From Baekduia soli (GTDB taxonomy: Bacteria; Actinomycetota; Thermoleophilia; Solirubrobacterales; Solirubrobacteraceae), in NCBI RefSeq assembly GCF_007970665.1, contig NZ_CP042430.1, forward strand, positions 4,960,001 to 5,024,000: 64,000 bases of DNA, given 5' to 3'. Under the pieces are notes generated by a model. That model had not been told where the DNA came from, did no database searches, and worked only from the letters and a program-made list of their open reading frames with translations. The translations under genes were made by a program, and so were the position numbers. Every line of letters starts with the position of its first letter. Position 1 is the stretch's first letter. Below are positions 5,032 through 12,675 of the stretch, piece by piece.

Positions 5032-5493
5032 TCAGCTGCCGCCCTTCTCGATCTTGTTGCCGTTGGTGCCGACGACGTACCACTCGGCGCCGAACGCCTT
5101 GCTGCCCTCGCCGGCCGTGCTTCCCGGCCTGCCGTTGTCGCCGATGAACGTGTAGAGCGGGTGGTGGTTGTAGGTCACCTGCGTCGTGCCGTCGGCCCGG
5201 CGCGTGGTGCCCAGCTTCGCCGCGCTGACGCCGCCGGTGCCGTGCGGCCTGCCCTTGGTCAGCAGCGGCGGCCACGCCTTCGCGCAGGCGCCGCTGCAGG
5301 CGCTGCGGCCCTTGCTGTCCTTCATGAACAGGTACAGGGTGACGCCCTTGCCGTTGGCGAGGACCTTGCCCAGCTTCGTGCTGTGCACGGCGACCCTGGC
5401 GGGCGCCTTGGGGGTGGTCGCGGCGGTCGCCAGGCCGGCGCCCGTGCCGAGCGCGGCGACGGCGGCGAGGACGGCGACGGTGGGGCGGGTCAT
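5032..5493 (-). CDS. secreted COG4315-type repeat protein
   Basis: This 153-residue protein has an N-terminal signal peptide (MTRPTVAVLAAVAALGTGAGLATAA, residues 1-25) and then two copies of the secreted-repeat motif of the COG4315 / Lipoprotein_15 family. The first repeat includes GKGVTLYLFMKDSKGRSACSG followed by CAKAWPPLL, with the paired cysteines and the W-P-P-L core; the second includes NHHPLYTFIGDNGRPG followed by WYVVG. The family is common in actinobacteria and proteobacteria and is exported, but its biochemical role is not established. No lipobox cysteine is seen at the cleavage region, so it is probably released or cell-wall-retained rather than lipidated. It faces the small membrane-protein gene convergently across a hairpin. 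Confidence 0.85.
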   Translation of the reverse strand: MTRPTVAVLAAVAALGTGAGLATAATTPKAPARVAVHSTKLGKVLANGKGVTLYLFMKDSKGRSACSGACAKAWPPLLTKGRPHGTGGVSAAKLGTTRRADGTTQVTYNHHPLYTFIGDNGRPGSTAGEGSKAFGAEWYVVGTNGNKIEKGGS

Positions 5494-5743: not shown

Positions 5744-6724
5744 CTAGGCCGTCAGCTTCGCGGCCTGGCGCTCGGGCGCCACCTCGACGACGTCCCAGGC
5801 CAGGCCGAGGCGCCGCAGGCCCCGGATGACCATCGAGGAGACGTCGACCTCGTACCAGCGCAGGCCGTGGTGCGCCGACGTCGGGAAGGCATGGTGGTTG
5901 TGATGCCACGACTCCCCGAGCGAGAGGATCGCCAGCCAGGCCAGGTTGCGCGACTCGTCGCCCGTCTCGAAGCGCTGGCGGCCGAAGAAGTGGCAGAGCG
6001 AGTTGATGGAGTAGGTCACGTGGTGCAGGATCAGCATCCGCACCGCGCCACCCCAGAGCAGGCCGGTCAGCGCCGTGTCGATCGAGCCGCCGATCGCCCA
6101 GCCGAGCCCGAACGGCACGGCGAGGCCGGTGAGGACCCAGACGAAGAACGTGCGGTCGACGAACGTGATGACCGGGTCGTCGAGCAGGTCGGGCGCGTAG
6201 CGCTGCCGGTTGGCGCGCTCGGTGTGGATGAACAGCCAGCCGACGTGGGCGTGCAGCAGGCCGCGCAGCACCCCGTGGTGCAGGTGCGGGCTGTGGGGGT
6301 CGCCCGGCTGATCGGAGAAGGCGTGGTGCTTGCGATGGTCGGCGACCCAGGAGATGATCGGGCCCTCGATCGCGGCCGATCCCAGGACGGCCAGCGCGGC
6401 GCGGACCGGCGCGACGGCCTTGAAGCTGCGGTGGGTGAACAGCCGGTGGAAGCCCACGGTGATGCCGAGCGCGGTCAGGATGTAGGTGATCGCGAGGACC
6501 ACGAGGTCGCTCGGGTGCAGCAGGCTGTTCCACAGCTGCCAGCCGACCACGCCGAGCGCCAGGAACGGGATGACGGTGATCAGACCCGTCAGGAAGCGGT
6601 CCAGCCACTCGTGCGCGGTGGGCTGGACGTCGTCGGGGCCGGGGCCGGGCGGGAGCAGCGCCGGCGCGGAGGCGGGAGCGGCCGCAGGCGGCCGCGGGTC
6701 CGCGGTGAGCTCGGACAAGGGCAT
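5744..6724 (-). CDS. membrane acyl-CoA/acyl-lipid delta-9-type desaturase
   Basis: The 326-residue protein is a di-iron membrane fatty-acid desaturase of the stearoyl-CoA desaturase type. The three histidine boxes are clear: HRLFTHRSF (HxxxxH, about residue 100), HRKHHAFSD (HxxHH, about 137) and HHNHHAFP (about 277). Hydrophobic segments flank them (for example FLTGLITVIPFLALGVVGW and LVVLAITYILTALGITVGF). It would insert a double bond into saturated acyl chains at the cytoplasmic membrane, using electrons from a ferredoxin or cytochrome b5-like donor. The ATG at 6722-6724 was preferred over one further upstream because the proline-rich leader already precedes the first membrane segment. The gene is divergent from the 6874 operon, across a region with two dyad elements. 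Confidence 0.92.
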   Translation of the reverse strand: MPLSELTADPRPPAAAPASAPALLPPGPGPDDVQPTAHEWLDRFLTGLITVIPFLALGVVGWQLWNSLLHPSDLVVLAITYILTALGITVGFHRLFTHRSFKAVAPVRAALAVLGSAAIEGPIISWVADHRKHHAFSDQPGDPHSPHLHHGVLRGLLHAHVGWLFIHTERANRQRYAPDLLDDPVITFVDRTFFVWVLTGLAVPFGLGWAIGGSIDTALTGLLWGGAVRMLILHHVTYSINSLCHFFGRQRFETGDESRNLAWLAILSLGESWHHNHHAFPTSAHHGLRWYEVDVSSMVIRGLRRLGLAWDVVEVAPERQAAKLTA

Positions 6725-6782
6725 GACCCCAGGCTGTCGCGCCGGGCCTCGCCCGACACTGAGGCGCATCGGTGGATGACAG

Positions 6783-6796
6783 GGGGGTTAACCCCC
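6783..6796. promoter_or_regulatory. perfect palindrome GGGGGTTAACCCCC
   Basis: A 14-base perfect palindrome lies in the 149-base divergent region between the desaturase start (6724) and the electron-transfer operon (6874). It is a candidate operator for either side; no cognate regulator is identified. Confidence 0.4.
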
Positions 6797-6814
6797 GCAT
6801 GGCGACCGCGCCTC

Positions 6815-6839
6815 TAAGCGAACTCTCATGGGTCGCTTA
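6815..6839. promoter_or_regulatory. inverted repeat TAAGCGA-N11-TCGCTTA
   Basis: Two perfect 7-base arms (6815-6821 and 6833-6839) are separated by 11 bases, about 35 bases upstream of the first gene of the electron-transfer operon. The position suits a transcription-factor site overlapping the promoter. Confidence 0.4.
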
Positions 6840-6873
6840 CGCCGCTACCACCCGCACGGCCGATAACCGTGGT

Positions 6874-7413
6874 GTGTCCTCCGCACCCTCCACTCCCCTC
6901 ACCCACCGGTTCCCCGCCGTCCGGGCCCGTGACGCCGCCCTGCGGCGGATGCGCGGGGTCAACCGCCTCATCGTCGTGGCGGCCGTCGCGCTGGTCATCG
7001 GGTTCTCGCTGCTGGCGATGCGCGCGACCCCCGCCCGGCACGCCACCACGGTGGCGCAGATCGGCCAGACCTCGGCCACCGCCGACCGGACCGCCGGCAC
7101 CTCGTCGCGCCGCGGGTCGTCGTCGCACAAGGCCAAGAGCCATCACCGCAACTCGTCCTCCTCCTCGTCCAGGAAGGCCTCGGCCGCCAGGGCCCGGGCG
7201 TCGAGCAGCTCGTCGGGCTCCGCGGCCACGTCGTCCTCGGGCTCCGCGGGCACGTCGAGCGCCCAGAGCCAGAGCAGCACGAGCTCGTCGCAGGTCGCCG
7301 CCGCGCCCGCCCCGGCGGCGCCGCCCGCCGCCGCGCCCGTCCAGACGTCGCAGCCCGCCGCCGCGCCCGTCCAGACGTCGCAGCCCGCCGTCGTGACCTC
7401 GGGCGGCTCGTGA
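6874..7413 (+). CDS. membrane-anchored Ser- and Pro/Ala-rich low-complexity protein
   Basis: Reading from a GTG at 6874, this 179-residue protein has a basic cytoplasmic leader (DAALRRMRGVNR), one membrane anchor (RLIVVAAVALVIGFSLLAM, residues 31-49) and then an extracytoplasmic tail. The tail is Ser/Thr-rich to about residue 142 and Ala/Pro/Gln-rich at the end, with two exact 30-base repeats encoding APVQTSQPAA-like units. No folded domain is visible. Its stop overlaps the GTG of the apbE gene, so it is the first gene of the operon. In comparable actinobacterial operons an FMN-binding (FMN_bind) protein is often present; I see no such domain here. It may be a spacer, a scaffold, or a reduced acceptor protein. 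The start is uncertain because upstream in-frame codons remain open. Confidence 0.6.
   Translation: MSSAPSTPLTHRFPAVRARDAALRRMRGVNRLIVVAAVALVIGFSLLAMRATPARHATTVAQIGQTSATADRTAGTSSRRGSSSHKAKSHHRNSSSSSSRKASAARARASSSSSGSAATSSSGSAGTSSAQSQSSTSSSQVAAAPAPAAPPAAAPVQTSQPAAAPVQTSQPAVVTSGGS
7324..7383 (+). repeat. two exact 30-bp tandem repeats
   Basis: Copies at 7324-7353 and 7354-7383 are identical and in frame with the low-complexity protein, each adding ten residues of a PAAAPVQTSQ unit. Copy number is likely to vary between strains by slippage. Confidence 0.85.
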
Positions 7414-8324
7414 GCTTCGCGGTCGCCACCTGGGAGGCCCTGGGCAGCACGGCGCAGGTCGTCGTGACCGACGCCGACGCGCTCGCCCCGGCGGCCCGCG
7501 CGGTCGAGACCGAGCTGCTGGCGATCGACCGCACCTGCAGCCGCTTCCGCGACGACGCCGAGCTCAGCGGCGTCCACGCCGCCGCCGGCGCCGTGGTGCC
7601 CGTGAGCGAGCGCCTGGCCGAGGCCGTCGCCGTCGCCCTGGACGCCGCCCGGCGCACGGACGGCCTCGTCGACCCCACCGTCGGCGCCGCGGTCATCGCG
7701 GCGGGCTACGACCGCGACTTCGACGACCTCCCACTCGACGCCCCGGCCCTCTCCGCGGTGCCCGCCCCGGGCTGGCGCCGCGTCCGGCTGGACCGGGCAC
7801 GGCGGACCCTGCAGCTGCCCGTCGGCGTCCGCCTCGACCTCGGCGCCACCGCCAAGGCCCTGGCCGCCGACCGCGCCGCAGCCGCCGCGCAGGCCGTGGC
7901 CGGCGGCCACGGCGTGCTGATCTCCCTCGGCGGCGACGTCGCCGTGGCGGGCCCCGTGCCCGACGGCGGCTGGCCCGTCGGCCTCGCCGACGGCCACCGC
8001 GACGCCCCGGCGACCACGGTGTCCATCGCCGCGGGCGGCCTGGCCACGTCGAGCACGACCCAGCGGCGCTGGCGCCGCGGCGGCACCGCGGCCCACCACA
8101 TCCTCGATCCTCGCACCGGCGCCCCGGCGCCCGTCGTCTGGCGCACGGTCAGCGTCGCGGCCGTCAGCTGCGTCCGCGCGAACATCGCGAGCACCGCCGC
8201 CATCATCCTCGGCGAGTCCGCGCCGGCGTGGCTGACGGACCACGGCCTGCCCGCGCGCCTCGTGCGCGCCGACGGCGAGACCGTCGGCACCTGCGGCTGG
8301 ATCCCCGAGCCGGTGGCCGCCTGA
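7410..8324 (+). CDS. apbE: ApbE family FMN:protein flavin transferase
   Basis: The 304-residue protein matches the ApbE family, which attaches FMN from FAD to a Ser/Thr of an acceptor protein outside the cytoplasmic membrane. Visible family features are SRFRDDAELSGVH near residues 44-56, DGLVDPTVGAAVIAAGYD (about 88-105), LDLGATAKALAADRAA (about 144-159), the glycine-rich ISLGGDVAVAGP (about 171-182) and HHILDPRTGAPAP (about 230-242). It lacks an obvious signal peptide or lipobox at this GTG start, which is unusual because many ApbE proteins are exported; cytoplasmic family members do exist. The GTG overlaps the previous stop, and its TGA overlaps the next ATG, so it is tightly coupled to both neighbours. 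The target protein is not obvious in the cluster. Confidence 0.88.
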   Translation: MSFAVATWEALGSTAQVVVTDADALAPAARAVETELLAIDRTCSRFRDDAELSGVHAAAGAVVPVSERLAEAVAVALDAARRTDGLVDPTVGAAVIAAGYDRDFDDLPLDAPALSAVPAPGWRRVRLDRARRTLQLPVGVRLDLGATAKALAADRAAAAAQAVAGGHGVLISLGGDVAVAGPVPDGGWPVGLADGHRDAPATTVSIAAGGLATSSTTQRRWRRGGTAAHHILDPRTGAPAPVVWRTVSVAAVSCVRANIASTAAIILGESAPAWLTDHGLPARLVRADGETVGTCGWIPEPVAA

Positions 8325-9010
8325 TGGCCCTCTGGTACCTCACCCGGGCGACCGGCGCCGCCGCGCTCGTCCTGCTCACGCTCTCGCTCGTGCTGGGCAT
8401 CGTCAACGTGCGCCGATTCGCCTCGCCGCGCGTCCCGCGCTTCCTCGTCGACGGCGGTCACCGCACGACCTCGCTGCTCGTCGTCGTGCTCCTGGGCATC
8501 CACATCGGCACGTCGGTCTTCGACGGCTACGCGCCCATCCGCCTCGTCGACGCCGTCATCCCGTTCGGCAGCGCCTACCGGCCGGTGTGGCTCGGCCTCG
8601 GCGCGCTGGCCTTCGACCTGCTGCTCGCCCTCATCGTCACGAGCCTCCTGCGCGCCCGCCTGGGCCTGCGCGCCTGGCGCGCCGTGCACTGGCTCGCCTA
8701 CGCCTGCTGGCCCGTCGCCCTCGTGCACGGGCTCGGCACGGGCAGCGACGTCCGCGCCGGATGGCTGACCTGGCTGAGCCTGGCCTGCGCCGCGGCCGTC
8801 GTCACCGCGATCGGGGTGCGCCTGTCGGACCGGGCGGCCACCCCGGGCGTGCGCGCCGGCGCGGCCGCCGCGATCACGGCCGCGGCCGTGGCCCTCGCGA
8901 TCTGGCTGCCGTCGGGCCCGATGGCCGGCGGCTGGGCGGCCAAGGCCGGCACCCCGGCCCACACGACCACGACGAGCGCCACCACCACGACGACCACGAG
9001 GACGCCATGA
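8324..9010 (+). CDS. ferric reductase-like transmembrane haem protein
   Basis: The 228-residue integral membrane protein has about six hydrophobic segments, for example LTRATGAAALVLLTLSLVLG near the start, SLLVVVLLGIHIGTSVF and AFDLLLALIVTSLL. Histidines at GGHRT, GIHIGT, AVHWLAY and LVHGLG sit in or next to membrane helices and could ligate two haems, as in the ferric reductase-like domain (YedZ/NOX type). It ends with a Thr-rich tail. It would pass electrons across the membrane from cytoplasmic carriers to an extracytoplasmic acceptor. It overlaps apbE by TGATG and the NuoF-like gene by ATGA. This domain next to ApbE is a known arrangement for flavin-based transmembrane electron transfer. 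Confidence 0.8.
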   Translation: MALWYLTRATGAAALVLLTLSLVLGIVNVRRFASPRVPRFLVDGGHRTTSLLVVVLLGIHIGTSVFDGYAPIRLVDAVIPFGSAYRPVWLGLGALAFDLLLALIVTSLLRARLGLRAWRAVHWLAYACWPVALVHGLGTGSDVRAGWLTWLSLACAAAVVTAIGVRLSDRAATPGVRAGAAAAITAAAVALAIWLPSGPMAGGWAAKAGTPAHTTTTSATTTTTTRTP

Positions 9011-10254
9011 CCGACCGCCTGCTGCTCGGCCTCACCCCCAAGGGCCCCGTCCCGCTGGACCGCCACCTCGCGACCCACGGCCCGCTGCCCGACACCGGCC
9101 ACGGCCTGATCGCGGAGGTGACGGCCGCCGGCCTGCGCGGGCGCGGCGGTGCCGGCTTCCCCGCCGCCGTCAAGCTCGCCGCGGTCGCCGAGGGCTCGCG
9201 CCCGGTCGTCGTGGTCAACGGCACCGAGGGCGAGCCGATGAGCGCCAAGGACCGCTCCCTGCTCATGCGCGTGCCCCACCTCGTCCTCGACGGCGCCGAG
9301 GCCGCGGCCCGCGCGGTCGGCGCCTCCGAGGTGCTCGTCAGCGCGTCCGAGCGCGCCAACGACGTGCTCGCCGCCGCGGTCGCCGAGCGCCGCGCGACGC
9401 GCGCCAGGGGCGCGCCGAAGTTCCGGCTCGTGCCGCGCGCCGTCGGCTACGTCGCCGGCGAGGAGACGGCCGTGATCGCCCACCTCGAGGGCCGGCCGCC
9501 GCTGCCGCGCGTCACGCCCCCGCGACCCGCGCAGCGCGGCTACCGCCGGCGCCCGACGCTGGTCCAGAACGTCGAGACCCTCGCCCACATCGGCCTCATC
9601 GCCCGCCACGGCGCGGCGTGGTTCCGCGAGACCGGCACCCAGGAGCGCCCCGGCACGATGCTCGTCACGGTCTCCGGCGCGGCCGCCGCGCCCGGCGTCT
9701 ACGAGGTTCCGGCCGGGGTGGGCCTCGACGACGTCCTGCGCCGCGCTGGCGGCCGCACCGAGCCGCTGCGCGCCATGCTCGTCGGCGGCTACTTCGGGGC
9801 CTGGGTGCCCGCCGACGTCCCCGGCCTGGCCCTCGAGGACGCCGCCCTGCGCGCGCACGGCGCGGCCGTCGGCGCCGGCGTGGTCGTCGCCCTGGGCGAG
9901 AGCTCGTGCCCCGTGGCCGAGACGTCGCGGCTGACCGCCTACCTCGCGTCGGAGTCCGCCGGCCAGTGCGGGCCGTGCGTCAACGGCCTCGGCGCCCTGG
10001 CCGGCGTGGCCGAGCGCTTCGCAAGCGGCCGCGCCACGGCCACCGACGGCGAGCGCTTTATCCGCTGGATCGAGATGGTCAAGGGCCGCGGCGCGTGCGC
10101 ACACCCGGACGGCACCGCGCGGATGCTGGCCAGCGCCGTGCGGCTGTTCCGCACGGAGTTCGAGGAGCACGCCCACCGCGGCCGCTGCCCGCGCTGCGCC
10201 GCGCCGCAGGCGCTGGTGCTGCCCATGGGCCGGACCCTGGCGGTGGCGGCATGA
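9007..10254 (+). CDS. NuoF-like NADH-oxidising flavo/Fe-S protein
   Basis: This 415-residue protein resembles the 51-kDa subunit of complex I (NuoF) and related NADH dehydrogenase subunits. The FMN/NADH-binding glycine-rich segment is GLRGRGGAGFPAAVK (about residues 41-55), followed by VVVNGTEGEPMSAKDR (about 74-89) and YVAGEETAVIAHLEG (about 158-172). An SLBB-type region lies around 235-300. The C-terminus carries SAGQCGPCVNG and GACAHPDG, cysteines typical of the N3 4Fe-4S site, plus an extra CPRC pair (RGRCPRCAAPQ). No other complex I subunits are nearby, so it probably feeds electrons from NAD(P)H, or to NAD(P)+, via the downstream ferredoxin and the membrane haem protein. Confidence 0.85.
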   Translation: MTDRLLLGLTPKGPVPLDRHLATHGPLPDTGHGLIAEVTAAGLRGRGGAGFPAAVKLAAVAEGSRPVVVVNGTEGEPMSAKDRSLLMRVPHLVLDGAEAAARAVGASEVLVSASERANDVLAAAVAERRATRARGAPKFRLVPRAVGYVAGEETAVIAHLEGRPPLPRVTPPRPAQRGYRRRPTLVQNVETLAHIGLIARHGAAWFRETGTQERPGTMLVTVSGAAAAPGVYEVPAGVGLDDVLRRAGGRTEPLRAMLVGGYFGAWVPADVPGLALEDAALRAHGAAVGAGVVVALGESSCPVAETSRLTAYLASESAGQCGPCVNGLGALAGVAERFASGRATATDGERFIRWIEMVKGRGACAHPDGTARMLASAVRLFRTEFEEHAHRGRCPRCAAPQALVLPMGRTLAVAA

Positions 10255-10490
10255 GCCGCCCGTCGTCACCGCCGGCGGCGGCCCTCGAGGCCGAGGAGCT
10301 CGTCCTGGACCCGATCGCGTGCACGGGGCACGGCCTCTGCGCCGAGCTGCTGCCCGAGCGCATCGTGCTCGACGACTGGGGCTACCCGATCGTCGATCCG
10401 TCGGTCCCGCCCGCGCTGCACGAGCACGCGGTGCGCGCGGTCAAGGCCTGCCCGGCGCTGGCCCTCGCGCTGCGCCGGGCGCAGCGGTGA
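10251..10490 (+). CDS. ferredoxin (single Fe-S cluster)
   Basis: A 79-residue small ferredoxin. The cluster motif begins DPIACTGHGLCAELLPE (about residues 20-36), with cysteines at the CxxxxxC positions, and ends VKACPALAL (about 64-72). The middle of the usual CxxCxxC is CTGHGLC, which lacks one cysteine; that pattern is typical of 3Fe-4S or ligand-modified 4Fe-4S ferredoxins that serve actinobacterial P450s and related systems. It is the last gene of the operon (ATGA overlap with the NuoF-like gene) and lies 41 bases before the response regulator. It would shuttle electrons between the NuoF-like protein and the membrane haem protein. Confidence 0.85.
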   Translation: MSRPSSPPAAALEAEELVLDPIACTGHGLCAELLPERIVLDDWGYPIVDPSVPPALHEHAVRAVKACPALALALRRAQR

Positions 10491-10531
10491 GCACCCACGC
10501 GGGCGGGCGCCCGGCGGCCTAGGATCGGGGC

Positions 10532-11203
10532 GTGCGGATCCTGGTCATCGAGGACGAGACGGGCATCGCCGACTTCGTCGAGAAGGCCCTGCGCGCCCAG
10601 GGCCACCAGGTCGACGCGTGCGCCGACGGCCTGGAGGGCGAGCGCCTCGCGCTGACCACCGACGTCGACCTCGTCATCCTGGACCGCATGCTGCCCGGCC
10701 GCGAGGGCGTCGAGGTGCTGCGCGGCATCCGCGCCGCCAAGCCGGCCCTGCCGGTCATCATGCTCACCGCGCGCGGCGAGGTCGGCGACAAGGTCGCCGC
10801 GCTGGACGCCGGGGCGACCGACTACGTCACCAAGCCGTTCGCGGTCGACGAGCTGCTGGCCCGGGTGCGGGCGCACCTGCGCCGGCCCGCCCAGCCCGAG
10901 GCCACGCGCCTGACCGCGGGCGACATCGACGTCGACCTGCTCTCGCGCGACGTCACGCGCGGCGGCCGGGCGGTGCGCCTCTCGGCCAAGGAGTTCGAGC
11001 TGCTGGCGCACCTGATGCGCCACCCCAACCAGGTCCTGTCGCGCGAGCAGCTGCTCAGCGGCGTCTGGGGCTATGACTTCGACCCGCAGACCAACGTCGT
11101 CGACGTCTACGTCGGCTACCTGCGCAAGAAGCTCGCGCTGCCCGGCTCCCCCGCGCCCATCGAGACGATCCGCTCGGCGGGCTACCGGCTCACGGTCCGG
11201 TGA
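10532..11203 (+). CDS. OmpR-family response regulator
   Basis: The 223-residue protein has an N-terminal receiver domain with acidic residues IEDE (6-9), phospho-acceptor Asp51 in LVILDRMLPG, Thr79 and Lys101 in VTKPF. The C-terminal half is a winged helix of the OmpR/PhoB type (LSAKEFELLAHLMRHPNQVLSREQLL, then VDVYVGYLRKKL and IRSAGYRL). It would bind direct repeats in promoter DNA when phosphorylated by the kinase encoded immediately downstream, whose GTG overlaps its stop. The start is the GTG at 10532, since the receiver fold begins at the next residues. It lies in the same direction as the electron-transfer operon and might control it. Confidence 0.95.
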   Translation: MRILVIEDETGIADFVEKALRAQGHQVDACADGLEGERLALTTDVDLVILDRMLPGREGVEVLRGIRAAKPALPVIMLTARGEVGDKVAALDAGATDYVTKPFAVDELLARVRAHLRRPAQPEATRLTAGDIDVDLLSRDVTRGGRAVRLSAKEFELLAHLMRHPNQVLSREQLLSGVWGYDFDPQTNVVDVYVGYLRKKLALPGSPAPIETIRSAGYRLTVR

Positions 11204-12675
11204 GCGCGCCGGCCGGACTGCGGCCGCGCATCACCCTGCTCATCTGCGGGGTCGTGGCGCTCTGCCTGCTCGTGGGCTTCCTGGCCGTCTACCGCGGGAC
11301 GGCCACCACGCTGCAGGGGCGCACCGACCGCGGGCTGCGCGACGACCTCGCCGACCTGCAGCGCTCGGCGCACGGGCCCTCCGCGGCGCAGCGGGCCGAG
11401 CAGGCGCAGACCTACCTCGCCCGCCAGCCCTACCGCGCCACGACCCACGTCGCCTTCGTCGTGATCCCCGGCCGCGTACCCGTGACCAACGAGCCCGAGC
11501 TGCTGGTCACGACGGGCCGCGACGCCGACGACACGCCGGCCGAGCGCCGCCAGGAGACGATCGACGCCCGCGCGGTCCTCGGCGCGCCGGCGGGCTTCAG
11601 CCGCCGCGTGCTGCCCGGCGTCGGCCCGGTGCGGCTGCTCGTCGCCGTCCAGCCCACCGGCGAGGGCCAGGTGCGCTTCGGCGTCGCCGAGCCCGTCGAG
11701 CCCGTCGAGCGGGCCGAGAGCACCGTGTCGCGCGCGTTCCTGCTCGCGGGCGCCCTCGGCATGGCCGCCGCGCTGCTGGGCGGCCTGCTCGTGGCCTCGC
11801 GCGTCGCCGCGCCGCTGCGCCGCATGGCCCGCGTCGCCGCGCGAGTCGAGGCCGGCGACCTCGGGCCGCGGATGGGCCTCTCCGGCCGCCGCGACGAGGT
11901 CCAGGTCCTCGCCCACGCCTTCGACCAGATGCTCGACCGCCTCGAGGCGGCCTTCGCGCGCCAGGGCGCGTTCATCGCCGACGCCTCCCACGAGCTGCGC
12001 ACCCCGCTGACCATCGTCCGCGGCCAGCTCGAGGTCCTCGCGATGAACGATCACCCCAGCGCCGAGGAGGTGCGCCGGGTCAAGGACATGGTGTCGGTCG
12101 AGATCGACCGGATGAGCCGGCTCGTCGAGGATCTCGTCGTCCTCTCCCACGCGCCCGACGAGGGCTTCCTGCGCCTGGAGCATATCGACCTCCCCGGCTT
12201 CCTGACCGGCATCTGCGACGGGCTGCGCCCGACGGCCGACCGGGTCCTGGAGCTCACGCCCGTCCCGCCGCTGGTCATGGAGGCCGACCCCGACCGCCTC
12301 GCCCAGTCGCTGCGCAACCTGCTGCGCAACGCGATCGTCCACACCGAGCCCGGCGGCCTCGTGCGCCTCGGCGTCCGCGAGCACGGCGACCGGATCTGGT
12401 TCCTCGTCGACGACGACGGCCCGGGCGTGCCCGTCGCCGACCGCGCCCGCGTCTTCGACCGCTTCGCGCGCCTGGACGCCGCCCGTGGGCGCGACCGCGG
12501 CGGGGCCGGGCTGGGCCTCTCGATCGTCCAGGCCATCGCCCAGGCCCACGGCGGCGAGGCCTGGGTCGCGCGCTCGCCCGAGGGCGGTGCGCGCTTCGTG
12601 CTCGACCTGCCGCGGACCGCGGCGCCGGAGCCCGCACCCGCGCGCCCGGCGCCGTCGTCCCCCGCGACGGCCTGA
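11200..12675 (+). CDS. sensor histidine kinase (HAMP-HisKA-HATPase)
   Basis: The 491-residue membrane kinase has two membrane segments (about residues 10-30 and 178-200) around an extracytoplasmic sensor region of about 150 residues. A HAMP linker (SRVAAPLRRMARVAARVEAGDLG) follows, then HisKA with the phospho-accepting His264 in DASHELRTPL, and the HATPase domain with N-box LRNLLRNAIVHTEPGG, G1 DDDGPGVP and G2 GGAGLGLSIV. The tail is Pro/Ala-rich. The sensor domain has no recognisable ligand fold. It is co-translated with the upstream response regulator (GTGA overlap). The signal is unknown. Confidence 0.93.
   Translation: MSAPAGLRPRITLLICGVVALCLLVGFLAVYRGTATTLQGRTDRGLRDDLADLQRSAHGPSAAQRAEQAQTYLARQPYRATTHVAFVVIPGRVPVTNEPELLVTTGRDADDTPAERRQETIDARAVLGAPAGFSRRVLPGVGPVRLLVAVQPTGEGQVRFGVAEPVEPVERAESTVSRAFLLAGALGMAAALLGGLLVASRVAAPLRRMARVAARVEAGDLGPRMGLSGRRDEVQVLAHAFDQMLDRLEAAFARQGAFIADASHELRTPLTIVRGQLEVLAMNDHPSAEEVRRVKDMVSVEIDRMSRLVEDLVVLSHAPDEGFLRLEHIDLPGFLTGICDGLRPTADRVLELTPVPPLVMEADPDRLAQSLRNLLRNAIVHTEPGGLVRLGVREHGDRIWFLVDDDGPGVPVADRARVFDRFARLDAARGRDRGGAGLGLSIVQAIAQAHGGEAWVARSPEGGARFVLDLPRTAAPEPAPARPAPSSPATA

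Follow-up and report, generated by a model that had tools for sequence, protein, structure and literature searches.

The closest described relatives of the system presented here are the MsrQ-like flavinylation systems, which in Actinobacteria include 31 clusters with a NuoF-like protein (Meheust et al. 2021, PMC8238504). These combine a haem protein of the PF01794 type, an apbE gene and NuoF-like entry of electrons from reduced nicotinamide adenine dinucleotide (NADH), and they typically also contain an FMN_bind gene (PMC8238504). Here, we describe a five-gene operon of Baekduia soli, found in a stretch of 64,000 nucleotides (contig NZ_CP042430.1, positions 4,960,001 to 5,024,000; hereafter the window), which shares the first three components but has no FMN_bind gene and whose ApbE, judged by eye, has no signal peptide. 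The operon encodes, in order, a membrane-anchored protein with a disordered tail (the tail protein), ApbE, a ferric-reductase-like haem protein, a NuoF-like flavoprotein and a three-cysteine ferredoxin. Based on comparison with related loci, we consider it probable that the tail protein is itself the target of ApbE, with its C-terminal Ser as the acceptor of flavin mononucleotide (FMN) in a transmembrane electron-export module. Orphan apbE genes were reported from 670 genomes (4%) in one survey (PMC8238504). That survey of MsrQ-like systems dropped genes without a predicted signal peptide, a filter that may explain why the tail form escaped notice.

Short flavinylation sites are known from other contexts. 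According to the review PMC12052999, the ApbE target motif is D-x-x-[S/T]-G-A-[S/T], FMN is attached to its final Ser or Thr, a stretch of seven residues suffices as a flavin tag, tags work best at termini, changing the Asp to Ala has a minor effect and Thr is preferred over Ser. The engineered tags in that source resemble the window type in having a short terminal motif with FMN on the last Ser/Thr, but they are artificial and follow D-x-x-[ST]-G-A-[ST], whereas the window type is natural, has no Asp and often has GG. The same review describes a cytosolic Klebsiella ApbE that, like the window enzyme, has no signal peptide, but whose target is a folded, soluble cytosolic fumarate reductase and not a membrane tether as proposed here. 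In PMC11334425 (mSystems 2024), Lactococcus FMN_red proteins are flavinylated at a motif in a C-terminal extension without structure, as is proposed for the window, but near a folded flavin-binding domain and mostly in Firmicutes; in that text, "Actinobacteri-", "Actinomycetota" and "disordered" each occur 0 times. PMC4048220 (Streptomyces fd68) was set aside as a precedent, its subject being P450 electron transfer. No report of a C-terminal tail substrate was found in the literature searched, in which subscription papers were thinly covered and bioRxiv was not covered.

The tail protein and its C-terminal motif

The main sample comprised the best 80 of at least 569 relatives, i.e. the loci closest to the query, with an alignment of their ApbE proteins. 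These loci cover Solirubrobacterales, Streptomyces, Amycolatopsis, Pseudonocardia, Frankia, Acidimicrobiia and others, and also include a few metagenome-assembled genomes labelled Acidobacteriota or Dormibacterota. The upstream open reading frame (ORF) for the tail was chosen on the basis of position, length, a transmembrane (TM) segment and a stretch of at least 20 residues beyond that segment, with no regard to how the ORF ends; where two ORFs qualified (L079 and L130), the one with the higher third-position GC content was taken. A tail gene was found beside apbE in 76 of the 80 loci. The other four were dropped before the tail counts, two at a contig edge (L102, L126) and two with no TM ORF in the searched span (L098, which contains 82 Ns, and L148, in which the ORF of a tail with the end STGAS lies 263 bases upstream).

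The window tail ends in Pro-Ala-Val-Val-Thr-Ser-Gly-Gly-Ser, and tails of relatives terminate in V(T)SGGS. Among the 76 tails, 62 end in [ST]G[AG][ST], 67 in [ST]Gx[ST] and 23 in exact [ST]GA[ST], and 71 finish with Ser or Thr. When the 40 C-terminal residues were shuffled in 2000 rounds, a mean of 0.33 and a maximum of 3 tails ended in [ST]G[AG][ST], and only 1 of 415 other called ORFs in the same loci ends in the motif. This single case is the haem protein of locus L157 (L157:879-1892), which is fused to a low-complexity tail of its own that ends VVATGGS and has a further SGGS inside; the locus also keeps a separate tail gene upstream of apbE. In L033, a tail ending VSGGS is placed before the haem gene instead of apbE. 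The position before apbE is occupied there by a multi-TM protein (L033:12315-12899) with no Pfam match over the cut-off, and similar proteins recur as a family in 8/80 loci.

The sequence likeness of the tail end to the ApbE target motif concerns only the core, [ST]-G-A-[ST], for which the window has SGGS, because the window tail has no Asp and has Gly for Ala. The preliminary description of this DNA, made from the sequence alone, had named the tail itself as one possible substrate; the comparative evidence favours this option and narrows it to the last four residues, S-G-G-S, instead of the Ser/Thr-rich stretch in general. Beyond that description, the related sequences show that the terminal motif of the tail is conserved in many actinobacteria.

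The annotated start of the tail protein agrees with the starts of its relatives, which have a basic N-terminus and a TM segment in common and show 22-41% identity to the window protein (15 aligned tails). The protein has no match to a Pfam family at E 0.1, and AlphaFold, run on a shallow alignment of 15 rows, modelled a single helix (residues 10-51) and no other element, with a mean predicted local distance difference test score of 61. With no Pfam match, PF04205 included, and no fold in the model, an FMN_bind domain hidden in the first gene was ruled out. Net charge before and after the TM segment was compared for the 67 of 76 tails ending [ST]Gx[ST] (+4.39 versus +0.34). Since the N-side is the more positive in 61 of these 67 tails (lower in 3, equal in 3), the tail is predicted to lie outside the cell.

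ApbE genes, their metal site and known targets

An acceptor elsewhere in the genome was the other option of the preliminary description, which proposed a genome search for FMN_bind proteins. When run on the 5.2 Mb single-contig genome, this search gave 0 matches to FMN_bind (PF04205), while the same search was positive in 4 of 14 control genomes; searches of the B. soli genome for NQR2/RnfD/RnfE, DUF2271 and DUF3570 also returned 0 matches, which speaks against an acceptor in these families. The genome has four apbE genes, and all four have an ORF with a TM segment and a tail at most 150 bases upstream, ending SGGS, SGGS, TRSS or TRAS. The TRSS and TRAS ends belong to two loci with a more distant ApbE (L027 and L028), where 14 and 147 bases separate the tail ORFs from the stretch matched by the ApbE profile; in L028, the first 40 profile positions are unmatched. 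Similar loci in relatives and in a sample of the phylum have tails ending TSAS, TSQS, TRTS, SDGS and SKGS. Across 41 genomes, i.e. the B. soli genome and relatives, some of them incomplete, ApbE was found in 25 and FMN_bind in 5, all within these 25, leaving 20 of 25 ApbE-bearing genomes that show no FMN_bind.

The window ApbE belongs to PF02424 (180.5 bits against a cut-off of 25.6, E 6.2e-53), and its catalytic Ser214 and His230, equivalent by spacing to Vibrio Ser241 and His257, are present in 81/81 type A ApbEs. The position 28 residues after His230 is Asn258, just as Asp301 lies 28 residues after His273 in Listeria FmnB; the corresponding residues in Vibrio ApbE are His257 and Asp285 (PMC12052999). 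Sister ApbE types mostly have Glu at the metal site, often with Lys at the following Thr. Because Asn replaces the Mg-ligand Asp, we classify the protein as a divergent ApbE with putative transferase activity and not as a canonical Mg-dependent FAD:protein FMN transferase (FAD, flavin adenine dinucleotide); the Asn type would have either low activity or an adapted site. With a profile match that begins at residue 12 and a start codon lying across the stop of the tail gene, the window enzyme has, as judged by eye, too short an N-terminus for a signal peptide.

A sample of 110 ApbEs, excluding matches that span less than about 200 profile positions and any repeated copies of one core, comprises 61 with an altered metal site, 47 canonical ones and 2 that are gapped at this site. 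Of the 61, 39 follow a tail ending [ST]xxS, 6 follow one with Ser a few residues inside, 6 have no upstream ORF and 10 have something else. L007, whose tail ends VTSGAS, was scored as "other" because its cut ORF missed the TM threshold. None of the 47 canonical ApbEs follows a [ST]xxS tail; 9 directly follow FMN_bind, 27 have no upstream ORF and 11 have others. Among the ApbEs that are neither of the Asn type nor canonical, 42 have a tail ORF and 32 of these end in Ser (shuffle mean 7.9, maximum 17). The association between metal site and tail has a Fisher p of 6e-14 without correction for kinship. The Asn type forms a single clade in the tree (99/97), and the other labels are clustered without each being one clade. 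The metal-site change was not upheld as independent support once phylogeny was counted: on these sequences the tail/metal-site pattern is real, and repeated co-evolution is not established.

Electron-transfer partners

The window haem protein has no Pfam match at E 0.1. PF01794 (Ferric_reduct) was above the cut-off in 4/4 type A relatives of the haem protein that were scanned and in 0/1 distant paralogue (L028). Four His are conserved in 77-80 of 80 sequences, and we infer that they bind two b haems; a reading of the loop charges suggests that the C-terminus is outside. A fifth, distant relative in the genome (L026:8847-9350, minus strand) has 33% identity and no ApbE match nearby. Haem proteins longer than 320 amino acids make up 14/79, most of the 14 having an extra C-terminal domain. 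The model of this domain in L105:5951-7024 shows eight beta strands (242-354), and its matches to known folds are weak, none at E < 0.001; the window copy does not have the domain. A long-form relative was weakly similar to NOX5, DUOX and STEAP structures (best E 0.014). In relatives, the additional sequence that separates the conserved part of the haem gene from the NuoF-like gene was rejected as an acceptor, as it is this C-terminal domain of the haem protein.

The NuoF-like protein carries the FMN/NADH, SLBB and 4Fe-4S domains (PF01512, PF10531 and PF10589) and scored 244.4 bits against the NCBIfam NuoF equivalog cut-off of 558.65, hence NuoF-like and not NuoF. Its Cys301, 321, 324 and 364 are present in 65/65 rows of an alignment of 64/68 loci (>330 amino acids) plus the window, and Cys24, 30 and 67 of the ferredoxin are likewise present in 65/65 rows. 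The window protein reads ESAGQCGPC where NuoF reads ESCGKCTPC. The invariant Cys301 may supply the missing ligand. Retention of the Cys residues in the NuoF-like protein and the ferredoxin suggests the electron order NADH, flavin, iron-sulfur clusters, ferredoxin, haems and tail flavin.

Proposed mechanism and alternative explanations

In the mechanism that we propose, the signal-less ApbE would attach FMN from FAD to the C-terminal Ser of the new, still unfolded tail in the cytosol, after which Sec would insert the single-span protein, so that the flavin would reach the outside at the end of a disordered tether some 130 residues long. Electrons from NADH would then pass through the NuoF-like protein, the ferredoxin and the two haems to the tethered FMN, which would reduce an outside acceptor, speculatively ferric iron or a quinone. 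The disordered tether would thus replace the folded FMN_bind domain, as a "flavin on a string" carrier.

Several observations weigh against this interpretation. A cytosolic ApbE and an outside tail require modification before export, and the two are compatible if flavinylation comes first; a review (PMC6028853) cites SecY lumens of up to 2.4 nm with rigid adducts. The window end has Gly in place of the motif's Ala, and the Asp is absent, position -7 of the tails being mostly His, Val, Pro or Gln. The strict motif is non-terminal in 14 of 76 tails, of which 5 have [ST]Gx[ST], 3 end in xGS (SSGS, TSGS, SRGS), 3 have the motif a few residues inside (L100, L149, L154) and 3 have none (L082, L091, L112), perhaps because the wrong ORFs were chosen. 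Among the other altered ApbE types, 10/42 tails do not end in Ser. For the metal-site association, just 5 phylogenetically independent pairs were available, 1-2 in favour, 0 against and the rest equal, which gives no significance. Finally, Asn258 occupies the position of the catalytic Mg-ligand Asp in 81/81 type A ApbEs; in PMC8906456, Asp301 of Listeria FmnB ligates both Mg ions, and Ala substitutions of the Asp301Ala type greatly cut or abolished activity.

The motif could be a by-product of translation signals of the overlapping apbE, either its ribosome-binding site or its start codon, given that a start codon overlaps the tail stop in 59/76 loci and that the Gly codons are G-rich. This artefact was rejected because the motif codons vary synonymously, at all four positions and with 46 distinct 12-mers among 62; furthermore, GGAG, GAGG or AGGA occurs within the last 12 bases in just 16/76 loci, the motif is retained in 11/17 loci without start-stop overlap, and the displaced tail of L033 and the haem protein of L157 end in it. 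We regard a ribosome-site origin as hardly conceivable, and the codon variation argues for selection on the end of the tail protein rather than on the apbE ribosome site. The conserved C-terminus might instead serve as a signal for docking or processing, recognised by ApbE, by the haem protein or by a protease, on a tail that is a structural spacer and not an FMN acceptor. The missing Asp, the prevalence of GG over GA and the tails of other clades that extend a few residues past the Ser would fit this, but the last residue is Ser/Thr in 71/76 tails and the core equals the known target core of the transferase family and lies next to a transferase gene, which makes a mere signal unlikely.

Also quite unlikely is an activity of the ApbE variant other than protein FMN transfer, namely binding or hydrolysis of FAD or the transfer of a different nucleotide cofactor onto the tail. 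Such a role would agree with Asn in all 81 proteins, with Glu, often plus Lys, in sister types and with the crippling effect of Asp301Ala-type changes in the FmnB work (PMC8906456), but the catalytic Ser and His are retained in 81/81, and the strong conservation of the remaining ApbE and of the tail end points to a working pair. An acceptor from another family, with an unrelated role for the tail, would escape the six-frame searches, which detect known families only, if it were unlinked and had an unusual motif; with 0 matches in the genome for four known target families and a tail gene adjoining apbE in 76/80 loci, we judge it very improbable. Flavinylation of the tail's own C-terminal Ser is thus the reading that we prefer. 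A wider and distinctly more tentative possibility is a second flavinylation mode across Actinomycetota, in which cytosolic ApbE variants flavinylate the last residue of a tail before Sec export and the metal-ligand Asp was lost because the free C-terminal carboxylate of the substrate takes part there, a role of the carboxylate that we infer. As FMN would be attached before export, FAD would not have to leave the cell and no folded flavin domain would be required.

Operon layout and gene neighbourhood

The operon consists of five ORFs on the plus strand between 6874 and 10490, each overlapping the next stop-to-start (GTGA 7410-7413, TGATG 8322-8326, ATGA 9007-9010 and ATGA 10251-10254), in line with the compact, co-translated operon of the preliminary description (Table 1). 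Its gene identities hold as well: Pfam matches confirm ApbE, the NuoF-like protein and the ferredoxin, PF01794 matches of relatives and the four near-invariant His agree with a ferric-reductase-like haem protein, and the first gene indeed has one hydrophobic segment and a low-complexity tail, as expected of a membrane anchor with a Ser/Thr/Pro-rich tail. The reported lack of an FMN_bind partner in the operon is borne out by the five proteins, none of which has a Pfam match to FMN_bind. Where all four partner genes are present, gene order is conserved in 62 of 64 loci, and no Rfam family was found at window 6500-10700.

Table 1. Features of the operon, with positions in the window
Feature	Position	Strand	Basis
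Tail protein, 179 amino acids; basic N-terminus, one TM segment, disordered Ser/Thr/Pro/Ala tail	6874..7413	+	ORF
Hydrophobic segment of tail protein, about residues 32-49	6967..7020	+	Sequence and model helix
C-terminal S-G-G-S of tail protein, residues 176-179; proposed flavinylation site, acceptor Ser179	7399..7410	+	Tails of relatives
ApbE-like FMN transferase, 304 amino acids	7410..8324	+	PF02424, E 6.2e-53
ApbE Asn258 codon, aligned with Mg-ligand Asp of canonical ApbE	8181..8183	+	
Ferric-reductase-like haem membrane protein, 228 amino acids; His46, 60, 122, 135	8324..9010	+	
NuoF-like NADH/FMN/iron-sulfur protein, 415 amino acids	9007..10254	+	PF01512, PF10589, PF10531
Single-cluster ferredoxin, 79 amino acids	10251..10490	+	PF13459, E 3.5e-12

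A response regulator and a histidine kinase follow the operon (10532-12675), and two-component genes, judged by eye, are the commonest neighbour family (37/80 loci). Upstream, a fatty acid desaturase gene (5744-6769) lies between the operon and a gene two positions away on the opposite strand (5032-5493, minus strand) for a secreted Lipoprotein_15 repeat protein (PF03640).

Implications

If the proposed reading is true, the tail proteins would provide a substrate for ApbEs that have no FMN_bind partner, and flavin could be positioned on the cell exterior with no need for FAD export. Covalent flavin would then serve as an electron carrier without a folded domain, and C-terminal protein modification would gain an added form.

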